Shown piece after piece: positions 2,914-6,418 of a stretch of DNA of 6,431 bases. Source of the stretch: a candidate division NC10 bacterium CSP1-5 (GTDB taxonomy: Bacteria; Methylomirabilota; Methylomirabilia; Methylomirabilales; CSP1-5); assembly GCA_001443495.1 (NCBI GenBank), contig LDXR01000036.1:1-6431 (forward strand), written 5' to 3'. The position numbers and the translations under genes are program-made. The stretch's first letter is position 1. Every line of letters starts with the position of its first letter. Under the pieces are notes generated by a model. The model made no database searches and was not told the DNA's origin. It saw nothing but the letters and a program-made list of their open reading frames with translations.

Positions 2914-4467
2914 TTAATAGATGTCGAAGCGGATGGGGAAGGCGAGATGGACCGACACGTCGGGGGTGTCCTCGGTCAAGCCGACGCCCACCGACAGGTC
3001 CATTGACACGTTGCGGGCGATGGCCCAGGTGACCCCTGCGTAGGCGGTGGCCACGTTGAGCCTGGAGCCCGGCACTTCTCCGTTGATGACACCGGGTTGC
3101 AGGGAGCGAGTCTCGGTCGAGGAAACAAATCGCTGTTCAAAGCGGAAACTGATGGCCAGGTCGATACTGAGGGCAAGGGCGACCCCCAGGTTATAGCCGA
3201 TCGAGTTGCCGGGGTCGATCTCGGTCTCGAATTCATGCGACCCCAGCAGCCTGACCGTGCGGTCGAGGTTGTGGGTATAGATGATGGAGGCAAAGATGAC
3301 GGCCGGATCGGCCGATTTCACGGCGGTGATCGTGCCGGTAATGCTGTAGAAACCCGTTCCGAGGGGAAGGTCCGTCGCCGACCCGCCGAAGGGATCCTGC
3401 CCCGTGATGCTCTTCCCGCGGACTCCCACGATCACGTCGGGCACCCACCCCCGTTCCCTGAGAGGCTGGTAGAAGATGGCCGCCTCGACGTCGCCTATGC
3501 CGGCGTCAGAAGTCGAGGTCTCCATGGTCTCGGTTGACCTGGTATCTTCGATGTAACGAAATGGCACCCGGACCTCGGCCTGGAAATCTCGGAAGACCCC
3601 CAGGCGCGCGGTGAGGGAGGGTTCGATGATGTTCCGCTGGACCTTTTCGGTCTCCAAGACCCCGATGATGAGGGTGGGGAGGATGGAGAAGCCCGACACA
3701 CTGATCCGGCGGGTATCGATAAAGAAGTAGTCGAATGCCGGAACAATCTCCAACCGACCCGGGGGAAGGAGGAGACCTCCCCGTTCAATGAGGGCCAGCT
3801 CGAGGCTGACCGGCGGCGGCTCCTCGGACGGCGGCTCGGGCTTGGCGGGTTCCGCGGCTGGGGGCTTGGCCGGTTCGGGCTCGACGGCCGCGGGCGGTGG
3901 AGGGGGTGGCGCCGGCTTGGGGGCAGGTTTCGCTACTTCGGGTGCAGGCTTGGGCGGAGCTTTCACCGTCGCCTGGCCGATCAGGACCCGCAAGGTCTCC
4001 TGGGTCACCTCGACCTGGGAAGGAAGCACGGACACGAGTTCGACGACGACCCGCACCACCGGCTTGGGCTTGAGACGATACTGAGAGGCACGAATCTCCC
4101 TGACCGAACCCCTGCCCGCCTGCTTCTTCGGCACACGTTCGGATAACTCGGCCTCTGCGATGTCAATGACGACCCGGTGCGGCTGAGGGAGCACGGAGGT
4201 TTCATAGGCGCCTACCGCTTGATCCGCCTGGATCCGGATGATGGCCGAGCCAGGGGCCGCTTCCTGGACTTCGACCCCGATCACCCGAATCGGAAGGATC
4301 CTGGCCTGGGCCAATGGGCCACCAGCCTGCGCAATCACTTCGCCTTGGCCTTGAGATTCAGGCGATGGATAGGCTTGCTGGGGGAGGCAGAGGGCGATCG
4401 TGAGGATGATCGCGATATGACCCGCGCCCCTCAGAAGACCAAGAGAGATTCGGTGCGAAAGTCTCAT
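2914..4467 (-). CDS. AMIN-domain / outer-membrane beta-barrel fusion protein (FapF-like pore candidate)
   Basis: Predicted envelope protein of 517 residues. Residues 1-35 are a Sec signal peptide (MRLSHRISLGLLRGAGHI, then a hydrophobic run). Residues about 60-165 look like an AMIN domain, the peptidoglycan- or septum-targeting module of AmiC and PilQ, with IRVIGVEVQE, HRVVIDIAEAEL and VREIRASQY...PVVRVVVEL in order. Residues 169-221 are a Pro/Ala/Glu/Lys linker. From 227 on, IERGGLLLPPGRLEIVPAFDYFFID opens a barrel of alternating strands with VSGFSILPTLIIG, GIGDVEAAIFYQPL, PLGTGFYSITG, DPAVIFASIIYTHNL and GNSIGYNLGVALAL. The chain ends FDIY, the aromatic end expected of an outer-membrane protein. 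From memory the barrel recalls COG4313-type 'transporters' and FapF, the pore that exports Fap amyloid subunits. The start at 4467 has AGGGGG 9 bases upstream. The frame is open to 4605, but that stretch holds the promoter. The 159-bp gap after the peptidase gene and a separate promoter suggest partly independent expression. Confidence 0.8.
   Translation of the reverse strand: MRLSHRISLGLLRGAGHIAIILTIALCLPQQAYPSPESQGQGEVIAQAGGPLAQARILPIRVIGVEVQEAAPGSAIIRIQADQAVGAYETSVLPQPHRVVIDIAEAELSERVPKKQAGRGSVREIRASQYRLKPKPVVRVVVELVSVLPSQVEVTQETLRVLIGQATVKAPPKPAPEVAKPAPKPAPPPPPPAAVEPEPAKPPAAEPAKPEPPSEEPPPVSLELALIERGGLLLPPGRLEIVPAFDYFFIDTRRISVSGFSILPTLIIGVLETEKVQRNIIEPSLTARLGVFRDFQAEVRVPFRYIEDTRSTETMETSTSDAGIGDVEAAIFYQPLRERGWVPDVIVGVRGKSITGQDPFGGSATDLPLGTGFYSITGTITAVKSADPAVIFASIIYTHNLDRTVRLLGSHEFETEIDPGNSIGYNLGVALALSIDLAISFRFEQRFVSSTETRSLQPGVINGEVPGSRLNVATAYAGVTWAIARNVSMDLSVGVGLTEDTPDVSVHLAFPIRFDIY
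3805..3963 (-). repeat. Proline-rich linker coding tract in the AMIN/barrel gene
   Basis: Low-complexity DNA coding residues 169-221 of the fusion protein. About half the residues are Pro, in PAP, PKP and PEP patterns with one run of six prolines. Such extended linkers usually span periplasm between a wall-bound and a membrane-bound domain. The Gly-rich frame on the opposite strand here is a by-product of this composition. Confidence 0.8.
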
Positions 4468-4476
4468 GATCGTAAA

Positions 4477-4490
4477 CCCCCTGTTGGGGG
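4477..4490 (-). promoter_or_regulatory. GC hairpin enclosing the ribosome binding site of the barrel gene
   Basis: On the minus strand CCCCC-AACA-GGGGG folds into a 5-bp all-GC stem. The 3' arm is part of AGGGGG, the only Shine-Dalgarno-like sequence for ATG 4467. With the promoter at 4496-4524 the transcript should begin almost exactly at this hairpin. The pairing is seen directly; a regulatory effect is inference. Confidence 0.5.
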
Positions 4491-4495
4491 CGCTT

Positions 4496-4524
4496 ACGCT
4501 AGCAACCCTCATATTCCTTGTCAA
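4496..4524 (-). promoter_or_regulatory. Sigma-70-type promoter for the AMIN/barrel gene
   Basis: On the minus strand a perfect TTGACA (4519-4524) is followed after exactly 17 bases by TAGCGT (4496-4501), a -10 keeping T1, A2 and T6. The transcription start should fall near 4488-4490, leaving a leader of only about 22 bases before ATG 4467. This is the best promoter in the window and argues against the longer reading frame that would extend the protein through it. Confidence 0.7.
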
Positions 4525-4559
4525 GTCTTTTTTACAACCCCCCGTCAAACCTCTATCGT

Positions 4560-4603
4560 GGACACCCCGATGGCCAATGTATCTGAGGGGTGTCTCGGTG
4601 TCC
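4560..4603. promoter_or_regulatory. Inverted repeat upstream of the barrel promoter (operator or read-through hairpin)
   Basis: GACACCCC (4561-4568) pairs with GGGGTGTC (4587-4594) across 18 bases, and GGACACC (4560-4566) can alternatively pair with GGTGTCC (4597-4603). The right side thus carries two tandem copies of GGTGTC. It lies about 35 bases upstream of the -35 box of the barrel gene and 24 bases past the peptidase stop. It could be a two-half-site operator or a hairpin at the peptidase transcript end; no U-tract follows, so a simple terminator is less likely. Confidence 0.35.
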
Positions 4604-4626
4604 AAGAGAGGAACAGCCCGGTAAGA

Positions 4627-5430
4627 CTATGGGGAAGGGGTCACGGGGAGCGACACCGGTGGGGTAACCTGAATATTGAAGAACTCCAGGAAACTCCCTC
4701 CGGGCGGGCTGGGTCCCCTGATCGACTGGACCTGGCCGGGGATCGGCGTGATTGCAGGGGTCCCGGAAGCGATGGCTACCACTCTGAGGTTTTGAGGCGC
4801 CATGAAGCGGGCCTGGCGGGCGAGATCCTCCTCGGTAAAAGGCCCCTTGGGTTTGTCGCGCTCCAGGATAAAGCCGATCCCATCGGTCCAGATGGAAAGG
4901 AAGCGTGTGAATTTCATCGTATAGTTTCCGAAGGCCGGGTCGGCGATCACCACCCGGTCGCCTACGAGCCCCTTGAAGACCACGAAATGCTTATAGCCCC
5001 GGATCTCCACCGGGACGATGACCGGCTGGTTCAGATCTACCAGGAAGTCAAAGTCCATCTCGTACCCGACCGCCTTGTAGCCCCGCGACTGGGCAAACCG
5101 CTTCATATCCAACAGAGAGAAGGCCCGGCGCTTGACGACCTTTTCTACATCGGCCCTCTGGGCGATTCCAAGGACGACCTCTTGCTCGGTCGCCGGGTCC
5201 CCGAAATAGTAGGTGAGCAGCGTCGAGATGACGGCCGCCCCGCAGCTATAATCGTACTGCTGAAAGGTGACGTAGCGGCTCTTCAGCTCTCGAAGGGTGG
5301 TGATATTATTTTTGGTCACGCGAAGCCCGCTGGAGTCGAGCTGTATCTCCGCCCCGGCGGCGACGTCGTACAGTAATGGAATGAAAAGAAGGGCAACAAG
5401 AAGCCGCGTCATTTTTCCGAATATCGTCAT
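4627..5430 (-). CDS. Exported C39-like cysteine peptidase (FapD-like)
   Basis: Predicted periplasmic papain-fold peptidase of the C39 (double-glycine peptidase) type, 267 residues. Residues 1-27 are a signal peptide (MTIFGKMTRLLVALLFIPLL, cleavage near AGA|EIQ). The catalytic set is complete: Gln57 as oxyanion residue, Cys63 in QQYDYSCGAAV, His148 in YKHFVVFKG, and Asp164 in VIADPAFGNY. Gln-Cys spacing of 6 and His-Asp spacing of 16 equal those of C39 domains of peptidase-containing ABC transporters as I recall them. No ABC or membrane domain is attached, so it is a free enzyme like FapD. The tail (about 195-267) is Pro/Gly-rich and of unknown use. The start at 5430 has GAGG 5 bases upstream; an in-frame ATG at 5457 lacks a better site. 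Its gene follows two small secreted proteins, 38 bp after the second, whose GG/QG motifs are candidate cleavage sites. Confidence 0.85.
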   Translation of the reverse strand: MTIFGKMTRLLVALLFIPLLYDVAAGAEIQLDSSGLRVTKNNITTLRELKSRYVTFQQYDYSCGAAVISTLLTYYFGDPATEQEVVLGIAQRADVEKVVKRRAFSLLDMKRFAQSRGYKAVGYEMDFDFLVDLNQPVIVPVEIRGYKHFVVFKGLVGDRVVIADPAFGNYTMKFTRFLSIWTDGIGFILERDKPKGPFTEEDLARQARFMAPQNLRVVAIASGTPAITPIPGQVQSIRGPSPPGGSFLEFFNIQVTPPVSLPVTPSP

Positions 5431-5468
5431 CCGCACCTCGTTTCGAACAGGACGCACATCCGCCGCTC

Positions 5469-6026
5469 TCAGATGCGACCAAAGAGATTTCGGATCTGCC
5501 TGACGACGCCCAGGCGGATGCTCACCACCGAATCCACCGTGACCCCTCCATTCGCCGTGATATTTAGGATGCTGCCGCCGCCGGTCCCCGTGGCCGTACC
5601 AAAGGTCACGCTCACGGGTGGGACACCGGTCGTGCCGCCATTGGCCGGGGTAATCGAGCCGCTAAAGACGACGTTCGATCCCGGATTCCCCGAGGTGCTG
5701 GAGGTCCCGTTCGGTAGCGCATTAGAGCCGGTGGAAAGCGAGACCGCTCCGCCCAGGAATCCGACCGTGGCGCCGGAACCGGGGTTATTCGGGGTGTTGA
5801 TTGTCGTTACCGCGTCAAAGCTGAAGCTGCCGCCGCCGTGTGTAAAGCCGAAAGAGACATTGACAATCGCGAGCCCCTGGGCGTAGGTGGCATCCAGTTC
5901 CTGGTCGCTCAGGACCCGCCCCCGGCTAGCCCAGATCGGAAGAATAAAAAAATGATGAAGAAGGGTGAGGGCCAAAACCGCTCCTGCCAGTAGGGACCTA
6001 TCGACCCATCGTCTTTTTCTTGTCAC
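5469..6026 (-). CDS. Secreted Gly/Ser/Thr-rich protein with LSDxEL-Y motif, candidate fibre subunit
   Basis: Unrecognised secreted protein, 185 residues from the GTG start used here. A basic n-region (TRKRRWVDR) and long hydrophobic core (LLAGAVLALTLLHHFFILPIWA) make a signal peptide with cleavage near residue 33. Directly after comes VLSDQELDATYAQG (38-51), the same motif as in the upstream neighbour. The mature part is rich in Gly, Ser, Thr, Asn and Val in short alternating stretches (FSFDAVTTI, NVVFSGSITP, SILNITANGGVTV), as expected of beta-rich extracellular proteins, and has no cysteine. The last dozen residues (VVRQIRNLFGRI) are basic and amphipathic, unlike the rest. GGGGGG sits 6 bases before GTG 6026. 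An ATG at 6065 would add 13 residues (MTGVLPSKPGGST...) that spoil a normal signal peptide and has only a weak AGAAG site. Context next to a C39 peptidase and barrel suggests an exported, possibly amyloid-forming subunit; this is inference. Confidence 0.72.
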   Translation of the reverse strand: MTRKRRWVDRSLLAGAVLALTLLHHFFILPIWASRGRVLSDQELDATYAQGLAIVNVSFGFTHGGGSFSFDAVTTINTPNNPGSGATVGFLGGAVSLSTGSNALPNGTSSTSGNPGSNVVFSGSITPANGGTTGVPPVSVTFGTATGTGGGSILNITANGGVTVDSVVSIRLGVVRQIRNLFGRI

Positions 6027-6103
6027 AGTTGACCCCCCAGGCTTTGATGGCAGGACGCCTGTCATTTGTGTCTTCTTCGCTTTCCCTTGGTCTCACCTCC
6101 CTG

Positions 6104-6418
6104 TCATGGTCCGCTGGTGAAGCCAATATTCGTCTGGCTGCCACTATTGACGCTGATGTTCAACTGCGCACTCACAGTGCTGCCAACGGCGTTAATCAGG
6201 ATCGCCGAGTTGGCGCTTTGAGTCCCACTGATGTCCAAAGTGCATGTCCCACAAACATTGGTGACAATCACGCCGCCGTTGTAGTCTTCAGAGGGCTCAC
6301 CACCGTACACCTCGGCTAGTTGGGTATCATTGAGGAGGGTACCCTCTCCCCCCCACGCTGGAGATCCTCCAAGGACGACCATCAGAGAGAGAACCATGAC
6401 ACCGAGTGCTACTTTCAT
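6104..6418 (-). CDS. Small secreted protein with double-glycine-like motif and CxxC, candidate fibre subunit
   Basis: Unrecognised 104-residue protein. Residues 1-23 are a Sec signal peptide (MKVALGVMVLSLMVVLGG core, cleavage near AWG|GEG). Then comes LLNDTQLAEVYGG (28-40), which resembles the leader end of C39-processed peptides (L..(D/E)(E/Q)L..V.GG). The predicted 64-residue remainder starts EPSEDYNGG, holds a CGTC motif (56-59), and ends in an N/S/A/Q-rich stretch (SGTQSANSAILINAVG, then AQLNISVNSGSQTNIGF) resembling imperfect repeats of amyloid subunits such as FapB/FapC. The start at ATG 6418 has GAGG 9 bases upstream; the adjacent in-frame TTG at 6421 is less likely. GC content, by hand count of two 60-base lines, is about 53%, against about 62% in a counted line of the peptidase gene. 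It is the first gene of the group in view, and its promoter lies beyond the right edge. The secreted nature is firm; the subunit role is inference. Confidence 0.75.
   Translation of the reverse strand: MKVALGVMVLSLMVVLGGSPAWGGEGTLLNDTQLAEVYGGEPSEDYNGGVIVTNVCGTCTLDISGTQSANSAILINAVGSTVSAQLNISVNSGSQTNIGFTSGP

Follow-up and report, generated by a model that had tools for sequence, protein, structure and literature searches.

What an exported C39 cysteine peptidase cuts is the question raised by a four-gene locus on contig C36 of candidate division NC10 bacterium CSP1-5 (Methylomirabilota; source genome G000), the whole of which, 6431 bp, constitutes the window analyzed here. The corresponding enzyme of the Pseudomonas Fap system, FapD, is periplasmic and essential for Fap amyloid secretion, and its catalytic Cys is required for the secretion of FapC; among the Fap proteins, FapE alone lacks N-terminal peptides by mass spectrometry, indicating complete N-terminal processing (PMC5557850). 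The target of FapD has been described as unclear or undetermined, and the Fap proteins are said to lack canonical C39 sequences (PMC5557850, PMC6173800). A first-pass annotation of the window had interpreted four successive minus-strand genes at 2914-6418 as a divergent Fap-like export locus, consisting of two exported precursors (S1 and S2), a free exported C39-type peptidase with all catalytic residues, and an outer-membrane barrel ending in FDIY that carries an added wall-binding domain. All four open reading frames (ORFs) are present at this place, separated by intergenic gaps of 38 to ~160 bp, and the interpretation is upheld by the FapF identity of the barrel, the C39 assignment of the peptidase, synteny in a same-genus genome (G002), and linkage of barrel and peptidase in 76 of 80 related loci. 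The locus is a divergent variant and not a canonical Fap system, with no NCBIfam Fap equivalog cut-off reached. Its likely role is the Fap-type secretion of small subunits of the surface or matrix, with a leader-cutting C39 peptidase and a FapF-type exit.

The precursors provide the clearest indication of what such a peptidase may cut. S1 and S2 are signal-peptide proteins rich in G/S/T/N, as the first-pass annotation had recognized, but their most informative feature had been missed: in both, a double-glycine-type leader lies directly after the Sec signal. S1 reads ...AWGGEGT-LLNDTQLAEVYGG-EPSE and S2 reads ...IWASRGR-VLSDQELDATYAQ-GLAI (signal peptides of S1, S2, and the peptidase were judged by inspection or a simple hydrophobicity rule). 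The consensus of double-glycine leaders is LSxxELxxIxGG, and a motif of this type is matched at the leader end of both precursors.

The same motif emerges from a broader set of 164 non-redundant same-strand ORFs, drawn from 94 loci, located no more than 2.5 kb from a C39 gene and signal-bearing by the hydrophobicity rule. An unsupervised search of these ORFs recovered the leader motif de novo as the strongest one found. Under five-fold cross-validation, 51 of the 164 scored at least 8 bits versus 1 of 221 control ORFs (p 2e-20), the controls being signal-bearing ORFs from a 400-kb portion of G026, which belongs to the same order and lacks this peptidase; an untrained matrix derived from known bacteriocin leaders only gave 33/164 versus 8/221 (p 2e-7). 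A further control of 400 kb from the window's own genome yielded no ORF at 10 bits or more (0/177). Control genomes without a C39 gene, or stretches away from one, were chosen because real precursors lie elsewhere in C39 loci. Outside the training set, high scores were obtained for P0, a precursor on contig C32 of the same genome (18.9 bits), and for the first and FapE-position precursors of the G002 operon (18.2 and 17.9 bits, respectively).

Characterized systems carry the motif as well. In the majority of Fap-clade loci it is borne by the FapE-position gene, situated between the C39 and barrel genes, mostly in the form ...L..xRG[G/R]-[F/Y/I]; FapE of Pseudomonas citronellolis contains ELKDAEMAQLRGR-YTLPG, Aeromonas FapE also has it, and Acinetobacter FilA carries MDDAALSAATGQ. 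Motif endings vary among GG, GR, AQ, AA, and AG. The motif was not convincing in the canonical FapA, FapB, and FapC of P. citronellolis (4.5, 7.5, and 6.0 bits), and the leader claim is therefore limited to FapE and the new precursors. The recurrence of the same leader mark across related systems suggests what the FapD-family protease cuts. This motif is the main value of the locus, since it makes the target of FapD directly testable: FapE thereby acquires a specific candidate cleavage position, and cargo can be predicted for hundreds of FapD/FilB-type loci. A literature search, which most subscription journals lay beyond, returned no paper on Sec-exported double-glycine Fap precursors, and a search on the Fil genes returned nothing informative.

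Two further arrangements of motif-bearing precursors were observed. In an Aquificota locus (L026:3883-6297), three successive precursors with the leader motif (VLSEEELEEVSAK, IISDEELDDVSGG, and IIGDRELEEVYAG) stand just before the C39 gene. FilA-like precursors with the motif were also found away from the C39 operon or opposite to it (L028:10567-11073, L092:5913-6350, L041:4763-5707, and L078:4369-4908), so cargo may be scattered in those genomes.

The peptidase itself is a relative of FapD and FilB. It matches Pfam Peptidase_C39 (E 2.7e-17), and its catalytic residues Q66, C72, H157, and D173 are invariant across the family alignment. Its closest solved sequence relative is 6MPZ (E 2e-17), a double-glycine protease co-crystallized with a leader peptide, onto which the predicted structure fits with an rmsd of 1.9 over 141 residues. 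Fold, catalytic residues, and leader consensus are shared with the C39 peptidases of PCAT/AMS and ComA (6MPZ, 4RY2, 3K8U); unlike these cytosolic ABC-transporter domains, the window enzyme is free and exported, and its presumed leader follows a Sec signal. Among NCBIfam models it scores FilB 1.5e-42 and FapD 3.3e-33, both below the equivalog cut-offs (146 of 475 and 115 of 330 bits, respectively), and a tree of 94 C39 proteins sets it beside two sequences from Nitrospirota, in a weakly supported position intermediate between Fap and Fil. A leader-like tail of the window peptidase (PFTEEDLARQARF) was dropped, as it scored only 1.7 bits. The nearest C39 relative (L023:6399-7583, Nitrospirota) bears two leader-like motifs (IVSEQELASISAA and RASDRELEEIAAG) in its C-terminal extension, as if this enzyme were its own substrate.

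The identity of the barrel is supported by both profile and structure. NCBIfam FapF is matched with E 3.6e-40 (profile positions 118-420) and FilC with 1.7e-19, below the respective cut-offs (138 of 700 and 70 of 630 bits). FapF chains are the only PDB matches of a profile built from 35 barrel relatives (E 3.6e-69), and residues 221-514 of the AlphaFold2 model align with FapF 88-406 (5O65) at Z 30.3, rmsd 1.9, and 30% identity, an alignment that takes in the plug helix. The periplasmic trimeric coiled coil of FapF, which is essential in Pseudomonas, is missing from the barrel protein, whose match begins only at position 118 of the 420 of the NCBIfam profile; an AMIN domain (Pfam PF11741; E 2.9e-08 and 2.5e-08 in two scans) and a Pro-rich linker stand in its place. 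Among the 35 barrels scanned, AMIN occurs in one, that of the window, and SPOR in one, both being peptidoglycan-type modules; the SPOR domain, read from the sequence of the FapF-related barrel of L035, occupies the same place as AMIN in the window. These two cases suggest that peptidoglycan-binding modules have been gained repeatedly by such barrels.

Conservation places the locus within a Fap framework. Within the phylum, the peptidase was found in 2 of 95 genomes, G000 and G002; scanning genome contigs with the window peptidase alone gave no match, whereas an alignment of ten relatives used as query succeeded. The G002 operon, on its contig C162, occupies the corresponding chromosomal site, next to ubiE, cbiX, and the gene for the solute-binding protein, and comprises a precursor, FapB/FapC-type repeats (FapB E 3e-18, FapC E 8e-15), the C39 gene, a second precursor, and FapF (1.8e-47). 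It resembles the window locus in its flanks, PrsR-type activator, sigma-54 site, peptidase, and FapF-type barrel, and differs in having FapB/FapC-type repeats and a FapE-position precursor and in a barrel without AMIN. Beyond the genus, where 80 related C39 loci spanning many phyla were compared, 76 contain the barrel. The gene set stays together, contrary to the refuting outcome named in the first-pass annotation. Occurrence outside Pseudomonadota is in itself no novelty, as colocalized fapD and fapF are already on record for five additional phyla (PMC6173800); the present locus suggests that the Fap chassis extends to Methylomirabilota and that it can change cargo and periplasmic anchor while keeping pore and protease. 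In the same-genus genome G005, a short barrel fragment adjoins cbiX (L134:8802-9347, contig C138), apparently a decayed remnant of the locus.

Contig C36 ends at the right edge of the window and cuts the operon off; the first-pass suspicion of further genes beyond this edge finds a probable answer in contig C32, which probably carries the upstream half: two more precursors (P1 and P0), a sigma-54 promoter, and a PrsR-type activator, with a PrsK-like kinase gene also on the minus strand at the left end of C32. S1 weakly matches this contig (S1 versus P1, E 5e-7), and repeat alignment relates its mature unit to the two Cys-pair repeats of P1; a search of the genome with P1 gave no further paralogue. 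A sigma-54 site precedes P0 (TGGCACGCCCGTTGCT), with TGGCACACCCCTTGCC at the equivalent place in G002, and exact -24/-12 sites stand before the first substrate gene in Fap-type loci of Aquificota, Geotalea, and Massilia (L026:3323-3337, L040:5055-5069, and L047:3978-3992). The fap operon of P. fluorescens is likewise RpoN-dependent with an adjacent activator (PMC9207406).

In cargo, the locus departs from both Pseudomonas and G002. None of S1, S2, P0, and P1 has an NCBIfam match for FapB or FapC, and the non-detection of FapB/FapC in this genome means that the cargo is different from the known amyloid. S2 has no NCBIfam FapE match; it shares the leader motif and weak similarity (30% over 101 aa, E 0.001) with the precursor beside the G002 C39 gene. 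The Cys-pair repeat protein occupies the place of the FapB/FapC repeats, and leaders occur on all four precursors. Measured against both systems, the locus appears to have retained the chassis and exchanged its cargo. The common ground with Pseudomonas, which belongs to a different phylum (Pseudomonadota), lies in the FapF barrel with its plug, the exported C39 enzyme, the exported G/S/T/N-rich proteins, the FapE leader motif, and the linked sigma-54 activator and promoter, whose adjacency here is inferred.

These features are consistent with a pathway in which each precursor would cross the inner membrane via Sec and lose its signal peptide, after which the exported C39 peptidase would recognize the following leader, [L/M][S/T/N]Dx[E/Q/A][L/M]xx[V/I/L/T]x[G/A][G/Q/R], and cut behind it. 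The mature G/S/T/N-rich subunits would then exit through the FapF-type barrel, whose plug would have to open, and assemble outside the cell, possibly as fibers. Through its AMIN domain the exporter may be anchored to the wall of the cell, and expression is probably sigma-54 dependent via the linked PrsR-type activator. In a more general form, which is moderately probable, a Sec signal plus a double-glycine leader would be the substrate code of Fap and Fil systems alike: the exported C39 enzyme would mature FapE and FilA along with many unrelated G/S/T/N-rich subunits, at this motif and ahead of a FapF-type pore. The machine would then be a general chassis that accepts different cargo at one site (FapB/FapC in one species, Cys-pair repeats in its sister) and whose pore can acquire a domain for wall anchoring.

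Other explanations of the locus differ in how the leader, the cargo, and the barrel are understood. The leader-like stretch might be an uncut docking signal for the peptidase or exporter, with the C39 protein serving as a substrate-handling chaperone or cutting another target, for example the exporter; inactive chaperones exist among C39-like domains, a FapD site has been proposed at GG motifs close to the plug of FapF (PMC5557850), and the motif ends are variable. This is unlikely, if not negligibly so, given that the catalytic residues are invariant, that replacement of the FapD catalytic Cys abolishes secretion while FapE loses its N-terminus (PMC5557850), and that the motif resembles leaders cut by C39 enzymes. 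Export of bacteriocin-like or signaling peptides instead of structural subunits is a still more doubtful possibility: bacteriocins and pheromones typically bear double-glycine leaders, both S1 and P0 are of small size, and one of the motifs has a weak likeness to bacteriocin leaders, P0 matching NCBIfam bacteriocin-leader models at E 0.14-0.19, below cut-off. Against it stand the FapF nature of the exporter, with no linked ABC transporter seen, the FapB/FapC-type repeats in the same-site operon of G002, and the G/S/T/N-rich mature parts, P1 being a 264-aa repeat protein.

Assignment to the Fil 'putative pilus' group (Acinetobacter and others; NCBIfam FilA/FilB/FilC) is slightly less probable again. 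That group also has a C39 gene beside a related barrel and FilA precursors with the motif, the peptidase scores higher for FilB than for FapD, and its weakly supported position in the tree is intermediate; the barrel is nonetheless nearer FapF than FilC, neither FilB nor FilC equivalence is reached, no FadL-like gene within the window and no FilE/F genes were seen, the cargo sequence is unrelated, and the same-genus operon has FapB/C/D/F. The idea that the barrel is an uptake channel of the phenol-pathway/COG4313 type, next to the peptidase by chance, is hardly credible. It draws on a match to Pfam PF13557 and on the adjoining convergent solute-binding protein, yet the model compares with the COG4313 channel at Z 25.3 and only 12% identity, the plug helix is of FapF type, and C39 linkage is widespread. 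A catabolic or uptake porin was accordingly rejected, PDB profile and structure comparison both giving FapF.

A Fap-type locus with a leader-cutting peptidase remains the preferred reading, and several observations weigh against it. P1 is a weak fit to the motif (6.4 bits, ending in AG), the FapE-position genes of some Fap-clade loci gave no motif, and motif matches include coiled-coil false positives, with 3.7% of shuffled sequences reaching 8 bits or more. The AMIN part of the barrel protein is modeled with low confidence. FapB/FapC were not detected in the genome, a weak negative because the FapC model was silent in all genomes of that search. An exact end overlap between C36 and C32 was sought and none was found, so the continuation of the operon on C32 rests on synteny.

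Table 1. Coordinates of the features of the putative secretion locus on contigs C36 (the window) and C32
Feature	Contig	Position	Strand	Details
S1	C36	6104..6418	-	ATG at 6418; 104-aa exported precursor; mature part is one Cys-pair repeat unit
S1 double-glycine-type leader	C36	6299..6337	-	LLNDTQLAEVYGG, then EPSE; directly behind Sec signal; 13.4 bits cross-validated
S2	C36	5469..6065	-	198-aa exported G/S/T/N-rich precursor; alternative GTG start 6026
S2 double-glycine-type leader	C36	5877..5915	-	VLSDQELDATYAQ, then GLAI; 17.3 bits cross-validated
C39 cysteine peptidase, exported, FapD/FilB group	C36	4627..5457	-	probable ATG 5430; Q66, C72, H157, D173
FapF-type outer-membrane exporter with AMIN domain	C36	2914..4467	-	517 aa; ORF open to 4605; probable ATG 4467
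AMIN domain of barrel protein	C36	3997..4275	-	residues 65-157; Pfam PF11741 E 2.5e-08; replaces FapF coiled coil
Pro/Ala-rich linker of barrel protein	C36	3808..3996	-	residues ~158-220; pLDDT mostly <60
Plug helix (residues 222-229) and transmembrane barrel (~234-517)	C36	2914..3804	-	pLDDT mostly >90
NMT1/SsuA-like solute-binding protein, convergent with barrel	C36	1689..2765	+	Pfam E 6.7e-16
P1	C32	106-954	-	264 aa from ATG; leader KLSDRQLDNVHAG; two 75-aa Cys-pair repeats
P0	C32	1021-1410	-	leader RLTDTELDAVTGG
PrsR-type sigma-54 response regulator	C32	1667-3085	-	above NCBIfam cut-off; 78% identical to regulator upstream of G002 operon

The left part of the window contains ubiA, ubiE, a CbiX-type gene, and the NMT1/SsuA-like solute-binding protein gene. 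Among 35 relatives, this solute-binding protein (L009:14418-15425 in addition to the window copy) is confined to G000 and G002; just these two of the 35 have either the protein or the secretion locus, and they have both.

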